Source of the DNA: Deltaproteobacteria bacterium GWC2_55_46
Lineage (GTDB): Bacteria; Desulfobacterota; GWC2-55-46
Reading direction: 5' to 3'
NCBI GenBank assembly: GCA_001595385.3
Contig: LVEI03000001.1
Coordinates: forward strand, 1,827,501-1,891,500
Length of the DNA: 64,000 bases
Made by a program: the position numbers and the translations under genes. Of the stretch, positions 50,163-54,786 are shown piece after piece. The notes beneath the pieces were generated by a model, which did not search any database, was not told where the DNA came from, and saw only the letters and a list, made by a program, of their open reading frames with translations. How positions within the stretch are numbered: the first letter of the stretch is position 1; every line of letters begins with the position of its first letter.

Positions 50163-50238
50163 GGGCCGCTAGCTCAGTTGGTAGAGCAGCTGACTCTTAA
50201 TCAGCGGGTCCGCGGTTCGATCCCGCGGCGGCCCACCA
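50163..50238 (+). tRNA. tRNA-Lys (anticodon CTT), integration target
   Basis: Acceptor GGGCCGC/GCGGCCC, anticodon loop CTCTTAA, T-arm CGCGG/CCGCG with loop TTCGATC, discriminator A and encoded CCA. It reads AAG. A truncated copy of its 3' part at 54702-54745 marks it as an integration site. Confidence 0.97.
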
Positions 50239-50248
50239 AGAATATCAA

Positions 50249-50278
50249 GGGGTTACAGAGAAATCTGTAGCCCCTTTT
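50249..50278 (+). terminator. Terminator of tRNA-Lys
   Basis: GGGGTTACAGA, loop GAAA, TCTGTAGCCCC and TTTT, eleven bases after the tRNA. Related hairpins occur at 51998-52026 and 54757-54786. Confidence 0.85.
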
Positions 50279-50420
50279 GCATTTAAGTGTCCAGTTTTTG
50301 TCCAGTTGGCGATAATAGGGTCGCTGTAAGAGGGGACAGTTTTTTTGGTTTGCAAAGGCATGGCAATATGGTAGGTAGTATATAAAAAAGAATGGTGGGC
50401 GGAGCCAACCCTACTAAACT
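50249..50420 (+). repeat. Element left-end repeat, copy 1
   Basis: Begins with the tRNA-Lys terminator hairpin, then TGTCCAGTTTTTGTCCAG, a run of T, and ends CTACTAAACT. The portion after the hairpin (about 146 bases) matches copy 2 at 52023-52169 with roughly six substitutions and one T-tract length change by eye. It starts the first accessory segment. The remaining 50421-50543 holds a possible nfeD promoter, TTGACA at 50473-50478. Confidence 0.9.
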
Positions 50421-50543
50421 TCTGGAAGATAATAGAATTGAGCTACTATAAGCTTCCATCCTGTGCTACTATTTGACATCAGACTGGCGTTCTTTCGTAA
50501 TAAATAAGATTAAAACAAAGAAGGATTTTGGGAGAAGATACCA

Positions 50544-50996
50544 ATGGATATTCTGTCAATTGGTGTTTTATCGTACAGCATTGTATGGGCTATCCTCGGC
50601 ATTATCCTGATTGTAGCTGAATTGATGACGATGGCATTTGTCCTGGCTTTTTTCGGTTTAGGGGCTCTTTTGACCGCGTTCTTGACATGGCTTGGGATAA
50701 TTCCTGGCTTTACAAGCCAACTGCTGGTTTTTTCGATCTCTTCTTTAGGCATGCTGCTGATGTTGAGGACCTTCGCGAAAAAGCAGTTTTTCAGGAAGTC
50801 TGAAATGTCACAGGAGTTCATCGGGCAAAAAGTAAAGGTTACCAAGGCGATACCGGTTAATGGAGAAGGCGCTGTTTCCTATAGAGGGTCTGAATGGATT
50901 GCGTTTAGCGATTCAAAAGAAGTAATCCCCGCAGGCGCTATGGCGGAGATAATCGGTACGGAAGGCATCAGGGTCAAGGTAAGAAAAATAGAGTAA
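50544..50996 (+). CDS. NfeD-family membrane protein (short form)
   Basis: 150 residues. Two or three membrane helices (about 5-80), including ILIVAELMTMAFVLAFFGLGALLTAFL, then an OB-fold domain with EFIGQKVKVTKAIPVNGEGAVSYRGSEWIA. Short NfeD proteins act with SPFH proteins at membranes. The gene is two bases before the SPFH gene, in the usual order. Position within a tRNA-bound accessory segment is unusual for this pair. Confidence 0.9.
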   Translation: MDILSIGVLSYSIVWAILGIILIVAELMTMAFVLAFFGLGALLTAFLTWLGIIPGFTSQLLVFSISSLGMLLMLRTFAKKQFFRKSEMSQEFIGQKVKVTKAIPVNGEGAVSYRGSEWIAFSDSKEVIPAGAMAEIIGTEGIRVKVRKIE

Positions 50997-50998
50997 GA

Positions 50999-51997: not shown

Positions 51998-52169
51998 GGG
52001 GTTACGGTACTGCCGTAGCCCCTTTTGCATTTCACTGTACAGTTTTTGTCCAGTTGGCGATAATAGGGTCGCTGTAAGAGGGGACAGTTTTTTTTGGTTT
52101 GCAGAGGCATGGCAATATGGTAGGTAATATATAAAAAAGAATGGTGGGCGGAGCCCACCCTACTAAACT
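51998..52169 (+). repeat. Element left-end repeat, copy 2
   Basis: Hairpin GGGGTTACGG/CCGTAGCCCC (51998-52022, loop TACTG) with TTTT, then the same sequence as copy 1, ending CTACTAAACT. The stem differs from copies 1 and 3 at paired positions while still pairing. It includes a complete GGTGGGC-GGA-GCCCACC hairpin, which copy 1 has with one mismatch. Nothing recognisable is seen between it and the ATPase start (52170-52385). Confidence 0.88.
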
Positions 52170-52385
52170 GATTTTAGGAATAGATGCTGATTAAAAATTT
52201 CATTCGCATTTAAGGGTTTTATATAAGGGGGCGGGTGTTCGTGGGTAGGAATAAAAATAAAGCTATCTAATTGAATTTACAGTCAATATGTTGTTATATA
52301 GAGAATCAATACCACTTAGAGATATATCCTCGCTTATATCGTTGAGTGGTTATGTTCGCTAAAAAGACAAGAGAACTGGATTAGA

Positions 52386-54566
52386 ATGAATAAAATAAAT
52401 ATCCATTTAGAAAATTGTTATGGAATCAAGAAAATTCAAACACAGTTAGATTTTTCTAAGCAAAGCGTTTATGCTATTTATGCAGCTAATGGTGCGATGA
52501 AGTCTTCACTTGCCCAGACTTTTCAGGATGTGGCCGACGCGAATCCATCTAAGGATAGAATATTTCCGACTCGCGTGTGTGTTCGAAATATAACCGATGA
52601 GAACGGTATTGATTTATCTCAAGAAAGCGTTTTTGTTATTCGTCCATATGAGGACGAGGATATCAGCCATACCGAGAAAACTTCGACACTACTTGTAGAT
52701 AGTAAGTTGAGAAAGGAATATGAAGAATTACATATAGAAATCGACAAATCAAAGGAAATATTTATAAAGGCTTTAAGGGAGCAATCCGGCTCTAAAAAGG
52801 ATTTGGAGAAAGAGATCTCCTCTGCTTTTACAAGCAGTGATGAAGAGTTTTACCGTGCATTGATCCGCGTACATGAAGAAGTATCGGCTCAGAAAGAAGC
52901 TCCATTTGCAGATATTGCCTATGACACGATTTTTGATGAAAAGGTTCTGAGTCTTCTCGACAACAAAGATATCAAAACGGCTATTGAGAACTACATTAAA
53001 AAATACAATGAACTTCTAGCTGCCTCAACCTATTTTAAAAAAGGCGTATTTAATTATTATAATGCTTCAGCAATAGCGAAGAACTTAGCTGATAATGGTT
53101 TTTTTGATGCTAAGCACTCAGTGAATTTGAATGCTGAAAAACGAATTGAAATTAATAGTCGTAAACAGCTTGAGGAACTGATTTCTAAAGAAAAAGAAGC
53201 TATTTCGACAGATAAAGAACTCAGAAAAAAGTTTACAGATATTGAAAAATTAATACAGAAAAATGTGACCGTTAGGGGTTTTGAGACTTACCTGACTGAA
53301 CATGAAGAAATTCTTCCAGAGCTGGTAAATATAGAGAGATTCAGAGAAAAGATTTGGAAATCATATTTTAAGGTACGATTTGAACTCTATAGTGATTTGA
53401 TCGAGAAATATCGCGCAGCTGAGAAGAGAAAGGAAGCGATAGAGGAGGAAGCAGGGAAACAGAGAACGCAATGGGAGTCGGTTATTGATATCTTTAACAG
53501 TCGTTTTTTTGTTCCTTTCAAGCTTAGTGCAGAAAATAGGGTTTCCGTTATATTGGGTCAGGAACAGATGCTGCGCCTAGCGTTCACCTTTGAGGACGGA
53601 GCGGATAATACGTCAGTAGATAGAGCCTCATTGATGGCGGCCCTAAGCACTGGAGAGAGGAGGGCTTTCTACATCCTTAATATTATTTTCGAGATCGAGG
53701 CTCGAAAGAAGGAGAAGCAGGAAACCATATTTATTATTGATGATATTGCGGATTCATTTGACTATAAGAATAAGTACGCCATCATTCAATATTTAAAGGA
53801 TATAGCTGAAGCACCTTATTTCAAACAAATAATACTTACACACAATTTCGACTTCTTCCGTACTATAAGCAGCAGATTTGTTAGCTATTCTAATTGCCTT
53901 ATGGCCCTGAAGAGCAGTAATGGTATTACATTAGAGCAGGCGACTGGTATCAAGAATGTCTTTGCAAACGATTGGAAGCCGAATTTTTTCACTGATCCTA
54001 AAAAGAAGATAGCTTCAATACCGTTTATTCGCAACCTCATTCAATTCACAAAAAGCGATAAAGACGCAGATTTTATCAAGCTCACATCATTGCTACACTG
54101 GAAAAGCGACTCTGCTTCAATTACCCAAAACGATCTTGATAGGATTTACAACACGGTGTTTTGTACAAGTGGAAAATCACCTGATGGCGATAGTTCTGTT
54201 ATTGGAATGATCCAACAAGAGGCAGACAAATGCCTAAAAGCATGCGATGGCATTAGTTTAGAGAACAAAGTTGTACTCTCAATTGCAATACGAATCTTTG
54301 CTGAAAAATTCATGATTGAGAAAATAAAGGATGATAAATTTGTTGCTAATATCAAGTCTAATCAAACCCCCAAGTTACTTGAAAAATTCAAGGAACTATT
54401 TAGCAGTGATGTTGACAATCTTGAAACCATTCAGCGCGTGCTCCTTATGACACCTGAGAACATTCACCTGAATTCTTTTATGTATGAGCCGATTATTGAT
54501 ATGTCTGATGAACATTTGAAGAAACTTTATGCGGATGTTTTGAGCTTGAACGTAGCCAAAACGTAA
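52386..54566 (+). CDS. SMC/RloC-like AAA ATPase with non-standard P-loop; candidate defence gene
   Basis: 726 residues, markedly AT-rich compared with the host genes. Layout is that of ABC-class ATPases with a central coiled coil: P-loop YAANGAMKSSLA (32-43), in which the Gly before Lys is Met; coiled-coil middle (about 105-370); signature LSTGERRAFYIL (420-431); Walker B IFIIDDIADSFD (448-459), with Asp in place of the usual Glu; H-loop ILTHNFDFF (483-491). After about residue 500 comes a C-terminal domain with no recognised nuclease motif. It lies alone in an accessory segment beside a tRNA. The role in anti-phage or stress response is inferred from context; no partner gene is adjacent. Confidence 0.75.
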   Translation: MNKINIHLENCYGIKKIQTQLDFSKQSVYAIYAANGAMKSSLAQTFQDVADANPSKDRIFPTRVCVRNITDENGIDLSQESVFVIRPYEDEDISHTEKTSTLLVDSKLRKEYEELHIEIDKSKEIFIKALREQSGSKKDLEKEISSAFTSSDEEFYRALIRVHEEVSAQKEAPFADIAYDTIFDEKVLSLLDNKDIKTAIENYIKKYNELLAASTYFKKGVFNYYNASAIAKNLADNGFFDAKHSVNLNAEKRIEINSRKQLEELISKEKEAISTDKELRKKFTDIEKLIQKNVTVRGFETYLTEHEEILPELVNIERFREKIWKSYFKVRFELYSDLIEKYRAAEKRKEAIEEEAGKQRTQWESVIDIFNSRFFVPFKLSAENRVSVILGQEQMLRLAFTFEDGADNTSVDRASLMAALSTGERRAFYILNIIFEIEARKKEKQETIFIIDDIADSFDYKNKYAIIQYLKDIAEAPYFKQIILTHNFDFFRTISSRFVSYSNCLMALKSSNGITLEQATGIKNVFANDWKPNFFTDPKKKIASIPFIRNLIQFTKSDKDADFIKLTSLLHWKSDSASITQNDLDRIYNTVFCTSGKSPDGDSSVIGMIQQEADKCLKACDGISLENKVVLSIAIRIFAEKFMIEKIKDDKFVANIKSNQTPKLLEKFKELFSSDVDNLETIQRVLLMTPENIHLNSFMYEPIIDMSDEHLKKLYADVLSLNVAKT

Positions 54567-54701
54567 CCAAATTTATCCAAAAGCACCTGAAGGAGTAGAA
54601 AATAGCCCAAAGCATATAATGGGCTAAGTATGTGAAAGTAGATTGAAATTCAGAAAAACGCAGGTAGAAGGCCCAGTTACAGTTTTAGTTCTTTTACGCA
54701 T

Positions 54702-54745
54702 TCTTAATCAGCGGGTCGCAGGTTCGATCCCTGCGCGGCCCACCA
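54702..54745 (+). pseudogene. Truncated tRNA-Lys 3' end (right attachment-site remnant)
   Basis: TCTTAATCAGCGGGTC matches the intact tRNA from anticodon loop on, followed by a different T-stem (GCAGG/CCTGC instead of CGCGG/CCGCG), the same loop TTCGATC, GCGGCCC and CCA. The 5' half is missing. It has the position and polarity expected of an attR left by integration into tRNA-Lys. Confidence 0.88.
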
Positions 54746-54756
54746 AGAATATCAGA

Positions 54757-54786
54757 GGGGTTACAGAGAAATCTGTAGCCCCTTTT
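54757..54786 (+). terminator. tRNA-Lys-type terminator hairpin, third copy
   Basis: GGGGTTACAGA, GAAA, TCTGTAGCCCC, TTTT, identical to the one after the intact tRNA. Here it belongs to the truncated tRNA. A possible -10 box TATAAT (54922-54927) for the following gene lies downstream; otherwise the 388-bp gap (54567-54954) holds only this, the tRNA fragment and a short AGCCCA/TGGGCT hairpin. Confidence 0.85.

Follow-up and report, generated by a model that had tools for sequence, protein, structure and literature searches.

The window analysed here is a stretch of 64,000 nt from Deltaproteobacteria bacterium GWC2_55_46 (G000, genus g1), and our subject is an insert of 4,507 bp behind its tRNA-Lys(CTT) gene. 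Features lie on the plus strand unless stated otherwise. The intact tRNA gene, already seen in the initial annotation and found again with ARAGORN and Rfam, occupies positions 50163-50238 (target gene, attL) and is followed by its terminator (50239-50285). Two units come next. Unit 1 consists of the left-end module R1 (50286-50420), a region upstream of NfeD which aligns with relatives (50421-50543), and the genes for an NfeD-like protein (50544-50996) and an SPFH/Band 7 protein (51014-51949). It ends at a middle boundary formed by a decayed tRNA-Lys 3' end (51950-51988) and a terminator (51989-52034). Unit 2 comprises the left-end module R2 (52035-52170) and one long gene (52386-54566) encoding PDC-S46, a candidate defence protein. 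At the far side lie a 44-nt tRNA-Lys 3' end (54702-54745, attR) and a further terminator (54746-54792).

To score the boundaries, a profile covering the 3' half of tRNA-Lys and the terminator was made from the sequences of the window and of 17 relatives. In the 64 kb there are three strong boundary units, at 50195-50285 (87.8 bits), 51950-52034 (37.1 bits) and 54702-54792 (86.8 bits), and no other match of note; 20 shuffled windows gave 9.2 bits at most. The profile and repeat comparison agree on the middle and right terminators. The right boundary had been described as a truncated tRNA 3' end plus the same terminator as on the left, and indeed the first terminator copy is identical over 33 nt to the copy at 54756-54788. 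For the middle boundary only a repeat had been noted; the repeat is real, but the boundary is not merely a repeat, since it also contains a decayed tRNA 3' end and terminator. This tRNA end (AACCAGCGCTCCGCAGGTTCG..., repeat family D7) starts at the SPFH stop codon. The two outer copies share the 16-nt crossover core TCTTAATCAGCGGGTC, which covers anticodon loop and stem and lies at 50195-50210 on the left and 54702-54717 on the right.

The outer copies also reveal an exchange of the tRNA 3' end. The locus was compared within a set of 63 genomes of the class, including 30 of the family, with one genome per species and many drafts among them (genomes and genera are numbered with G and g). When 50163-50194 is joined to 54702-54745, the result equals the tRNA-Lys of six relatives at 76 of 76 bases, and the tRNA-Lys gene now present differs from their sequence at six positions, all in or around the T-stem and none in the 5' half. 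Therefore, the present 3' end, from 50195 on, was most likely brought by the insert, and the 44 nt at the far side would be the original end in displaced position. Such a swap is what insertion into an anticodon loop predicts, as the element supplies a new 3' end and moves the old one to its far side. Judged from its sequence, the tRNA-Lys is left working by the insert.

The initial annotation had pointed out that the same sequence opens both segments (50249-50420 and 51998-52169). BLAST confirms this with 91% identity over 182 nt; in ungapped comparison the copies agree at 82% over 124 nt and 96% over 81 nt. Part of this repeated left end, however, derives from the 3' end of an integrase gene. 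On the minus strand, positions 50239-50330 read ...ANWTKTGHLNAKGATDFSVTP*, and the R1 antisense end ...KGATDFSVTP* compares with ...EGATHSVTP* in G006 and with ...KKEGATHSVTP*, the end of intact integrases beside tRNA genes. In R2 the antisense reading PTGQKLYSEMQKGL corresponds to PTIQKLYSVKEKGL, in which the intact integrase of L219 ends. Since the antisense readings match the C-terminal ends of intact integrases, R1 and R2 both retain the tail of a lost integrase gene. As had been claimed, no integrase is left: the list of open reading frames and a domain search gave no integrase-like frame between 50239 and 54701, where only the antisense tails were found.

R1 contains the direct repeat TGTCCAGTTTTTGTCCAGT, and TGT(C/A)CAGTTTTTGTCCAGTTGG comes after the terminator in both modules. 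If one mismatch is permitted, the repeat core occurs nine times in the 63 genomes and never in a reversed control, and all nine sites directly follow either a tRNA 3' end or the remnant of a tRNA terminator. Where intact integrase genes adjoin other tRNAs in the class, their antisense 3' end contains a similar direct repeat, for example ACTGTATAGTTTTTGTATAGTTGG in L219. The direct repeats of R1 and R2 are probably arm-type binding sites of the lost integrase. A left-end module of approximately 130 nt is common to units with unrelated genes in G000, G021, G019, G007 and G028. Of its sixteen best genome-wide matches, 15 are at tRNA-Lys or its arrays and one is at tRNA-Arg; 11 of these matched units were used to build the model and hence match by construction, and no further ones turned up elsewhere. 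The module with its direct repeat is also seen behind tRNA-Arg(ACG) (L191/L194; G006:C117:6310-6489), so that such left ends are not limited to tRNA-Lys. A further observation concerns the palindrome GGTGGGCGGAGCCCACCCTAC within R1 and R2 (50380-50420 and 52129-52169). Similar short matches are scattered in G020, G013, G025 and other genomes, and it is a probable dispersed palindromic repeat.

An integrase with tRNA-Lys specificity was not found in G000, where the nearest relative of the G021 tRNA-Lys integrase adjoins tRNA-Met. There are other traces of tRNA-bound elements in this genome. A tyrosine integrase gene lies beside tRNA-Met(CAT) (L213, G000:C3:27134-28342), and copies or fragments of it with 89-97% protein identity occur in G016, G010, G005, G021 and G024, several of them beside the same tRNA-Met and across several genera, as in a recently spread element. 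A P4-like integrase lies by a tRNA-Pro 3'-end remnant and terminator (L040, G000:C1:about 2426-4012), and a truncated integrase gene with two in-frame stops has a tRNA-type terminator nearby (L041, G000:C1:2334195-2334374), which marks a further element remnant.

The tRNA-Lys site is occupied in relatives as well. NfeD of this type (at least 81% identity) is present in seven of the 30 family genomes, in six of them at tRNA-Lys or in an array behind it; the seventh copy starts at a contig edge (G027). It stands directly behind tRNA-Lys in G003, G014 and G010, and other units intervene in G021 and G019. The NfeD-SPFH units of these relatives are already without an integrase. In the initial annotation, relatives with these genes at this place but no att-like repeats had been named as the finding that would speak against integration; in all seven genomes the NfeD-SPFH unit is followed by a tRNA 3'-end remnant or its trace. 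An empty tRNA-Lys site and integrase-bearing elements at the same tRNA had also been proposed as things to look for, and both have counterparts. G029, of the same genus as G014 (RpoD silent-site identity 0.94), has no NfeD-SPFH and a near-empty site, with colinear flanks 88% and 91% identical and approximately 40 nt unaligned at the junction; this state could also be due to precise loss. Integrase elements at tRNA-Lys exist in G006 (C-terminal part of the gene at a contig edge), in G021 (decayed) and in G007, where the integrase of a 33-kb element is intact and the tRNA end is repeated almost perfectly over 51 nt. No tRNA-Lys remnants were seen outside the family in the order- and class-level genomes read, several contigs of which were short.

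Arrays of up to approximately six units (G019) and four units (G021) have formed at this tRNA. The units are of 0.7-2.8 kb and have one or two genes each; in relatives they carry an S24 repressor-like gene (one G019 unit) and genes for YcxB-like, GNAT acetyltransferase, hemerythrin, cation efflux and unknown proteins. Additional units are on the tRNA side: G019 has three more than G010, and compared to G014, G021 has an extra 19-kb element with a decayed integrase and two small units. In arrays growing at a tRNA gene the distal boundaries are the oldest. The boundary scores, counted from the tRNA outward, fall in G019 (91, 59, 33 and 25 bits) and mostly fall in G021 (90, 84, 41, 24 and 41 bits). 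The 19-kb element of G021 (L042, L043; G021:C3:about 108000-127000) contains an alpha-2-macroglobulin and penicillin-binding protein 1C type pair and, beside the integrase pseudogene, an AAA_14/DUF4143 ATPase gene.

Some units have passed between genera, to judge from silent-site identity, defined as third-position identity at conserved residues. For NfeD/SPFH it is 0.83-0.88 between G000 and G014/G021 of genus g10, and 0.79-0.80 between G000 and G003, both of g1. RpoD gives 0.59-0.60 and 0.63, respectively, with a maximum of 0.69 over 224 inter-genus pairs. Compared with G019, the NfeD/SPFH identity of G000 drops to 0.64-0.65, so the silent sites of these genes are free to diverge. The similarity between G000 and g10 is confined to about 50405-51990 and falls sharply outside. 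A GNAT unit shared by G007 and G021 is 87.6% identical in DNA from terminator to terminator in different surroundings, with a silent-site identity of 0.88 versus 0.48 for RpoD. By this measure, the similarity of the NfeD-SPFH and GNAT units between genera is much too high for them to have descended vertically.

Three cargo genes were identified in the insert (NfeD, SPFH and PDC-S46), and there were no transfer or mobilisation genes among them. The NfeD-like protein has 150 aa (PF01957, E 5e-13) and the SPFH protein is of the stomatin type with 311 aa (PF01145, PF16200); NfeD and SPFH/stomatin proteins are a known membrane-protein pairing. PDC-S46, an SMC/Rad50/PtuA-like ATPase of 726 aa, is identified by its PADLOC model (PDLC05023, E 4e-281), which it matches over full length (residues 1-721 on model positions 1-718, 932.7 bits). 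Unit 2, with this one gene, has a GC content of 36.5% versus 54.7% in the window. Apart from one weak partial match, PDC-S46 was not found in the other 62 class genomes; its closest relatives are spread over many phyla, and proteins 73-81% identical occur in other lineages. The motifs NG.MKSS, LSTGE and DDxADSFD are kept across 36 aligned homologues and indicate an active ABC-type ATPase. The AlphaFold model has a mean pLDDT of 85; Foldseek matched it weakly to SMC, Rad50, Septu/retron PtuA and similar ATPases (TM score 0.17-0.26 on the query), and no solved structure matching by sequence was found. The PADLOC model is that of a candidate, and our literature search gave no paper on PDC-S46. 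From the family label and the modelled fold, the protein probably acts against phage. Here it stands alone. A relative 81% identical (L180) was seen by eye upstream of a DNA methylase-like gene of a restriction-modification system, a downstream neighbour which sets that locus apart from ours despite the full-length match to the model. Since tRNA genes are rare near other PDC-S46 loci, the gene is not generally tRNA-linked.

Taken together, the 4,507 bp from 50195 to 54702 are very probably an integrated, integrase-less composite of two units which accreted in the manner of cis-mobilizable elements (CIMEs). It is comparison that brings out the three att-like boundaries, the integrase tails, the 3'-end swap, the near-empty sister site and the spread of NfeD-SPFH. 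The initial idea of two related elements in tandem at one att site is supported, with the refinement that the units may have arrived as one composite. A tyrosine recombinase, formerly present or acting from elsewhere, would have recombined the 16-nt anticodon-loop core, and NfeD-SPFH and PDC-S46 would have entered jointly via the outer cores from a donor related to g10. Joint arrival is the simplest account of an insert whose outer boundary is fresh and whose inner one is decayed, the reverse of the other arrays, and whose unit 1 is similar to the unit of another genus. Within the composite explanation, we consider the chances of this joint arrival from a g10-related donor to be roughly even.

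Several points weigh against this composite explanation. The evidence is comparative throughout. In the approximately unbiased test, a species-like topology of NfeD-SPFH was not rejected (p = 0.088), and the claim of transfer therefore rests on the level of divergence. A stretch of 33 nt is identical in the left and right terminators although the T-stems differ, which suggests some gene conversion, and how R1 became nearly identical to R2 has no account in this explanation. An exact empty site including the right flank was not found; this flank is rearranged between genera and differs even among members of the same genus, and for this reason the exact insert has no empty counterpart.

Alternatively, two elements could have inserted separately in G000, each with its own integrase, and both integrases could have been deleted in place later. 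R1 and R2 each keep an integrase-gene tail, the stretch 52171-52385 between R2 and PDC-S46 could be what a deletion left behind, and G021 has an integrase pseudogene at the first position. Yet the older unit would be expected to be distal and to have the worse-decayed boundary, as in G021 and G019, whereas in G000 it is the inner boundary that has decayed while the outer one is fresh; moreover, the NfeD-SPFH units of relatives already lack an integrase. We therefore see two separate insertions as possible but doubtful. Local duplication of tRNA fragments without mobile elements is very improbable. Duplications of tRNA pieces do occur in general, though none was seen here, and they would copy the present T-stem, while the distal copy matches other genomes instead; the near-empty site, the foreign GC content and the similarity between genera would be left unexplained.

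The decayed cores, such as those of NfeD-SPFH, should be poor recombinase substrates, and this speaks for a spread without site-specific recombination, in which conserved sequences of tRNA and terminator would serve as the homology for recombination, for instance once DNA has been taken up. Throughout the family, tRNA 3' ends and terminators are conserved, and the GNAT unit is shared from one terminator to the next. However, between genera the upstream identity is only ~0.3 right before the tRNA, which limits the homology on the left side to less than 130 bp. Besides, the exchange begins in the anticodon loop, a typical crossover site of integrases, and with the swapped T-stem the tRNA stays functional. 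This route appears unlikely. To the same degree, we find it unlikely that the site is an active, integron-like cassette array anchored at tRNA-Lys(CTT), to which integrases of co-resident elements add integrase-less one- or two-gene units in trans on the tRNA side, the units sharing a left-end module and a tRNA-3'-end/terminator boundary, accumulating, decaying with distance and passing singly between genera. The long arrays of G019 and G021 with small units of unrelated single genes, the entry of new units on the tRNA side with boundary decay growing with distance, the near-confinement of the left-end module to tRNA-Lys and the movement of single units between genera would all fit. Against it, G000 has no intact integrase specific for the site, most inner cores are decayed, and the decay of larger elements would look similar.

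Under the explanation as an accreted composite, the insert is important for several reasons. Islands without an integrase are commonly regarded as dead ends, but the small units here show transfer between genera, and thus the loss of the integrase is not a loss of mobility at the evolutionary scale. At the tRNA-Lys site, the order of insertions and the decay of boundaries can be read in compact form. Further, the site shows how a lone defence gene can be delivered without a recognisable element around it, and tools which seek integrases would miss such cases.

Among known systems, CIMEs, described for ICESt1-related elements of Streptococcus (PMC5704250), are alike in being att-bounded at the 3' end of a target gene, in tandem arrangement, in having no integrase or transfer genes and in that integrase elements may be their neighbours at the same site; for them, tandem accretion and a later transfer of the whole composite have been described. 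In its sequence anatomy, the insert corresponds to a CIME, with an outer core intact over 16 nt and a decayed inner core. The units of 0.7-2.8 kb with one or two genes are a difference, and no conjugative element was seen in the window. Integrative and mobilizable or conjugative elements have their own recombinase and mobilisation genes, which the insert has not, and it does not qualify as a prophage or phage satellite, with no phage structural or packaging-interference genes among its genes. The composite island at tRNA-Lys of S. agalactiae, as cited in PMC5704250, also has two tandem elements and a chimeric inner att site, but its elements encode integrases and conjugation or mobilisation functions. 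In Dehalococcoides, islands lie in tandem at the RNA gene ssrA, split by repeats of its 3' end, and many of them, 15 as reported, are without an integration module (PMC3146451). Their target is tmRNA with insertion in the T-loop and their modules are Ccr-like recombinases; the present insert targets tRNA-Lys with a core in the anticodon loop, its integrase vestige is of the tyrosine type and its units are much smaller. Integron cassette arrays are similar in their small units of one or two genes, mostly in one direction, and in growth from one end, but the boundaries here are tRNA-Lys 3' ends with terminator and not attC, and no IntI was noted with the units, the integrases of G000 having been listed but not typed for IntI. 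For arrays of this size at tRNA genes, we found nothing closer in the literature than CIMEs and the Dehalococcoides islands. What is unusual in our case is the scale, with one or two genes per unit, a common left-end module and family-wide arrays at one tRNA, and this is a difference within the known types rather than a separate category.

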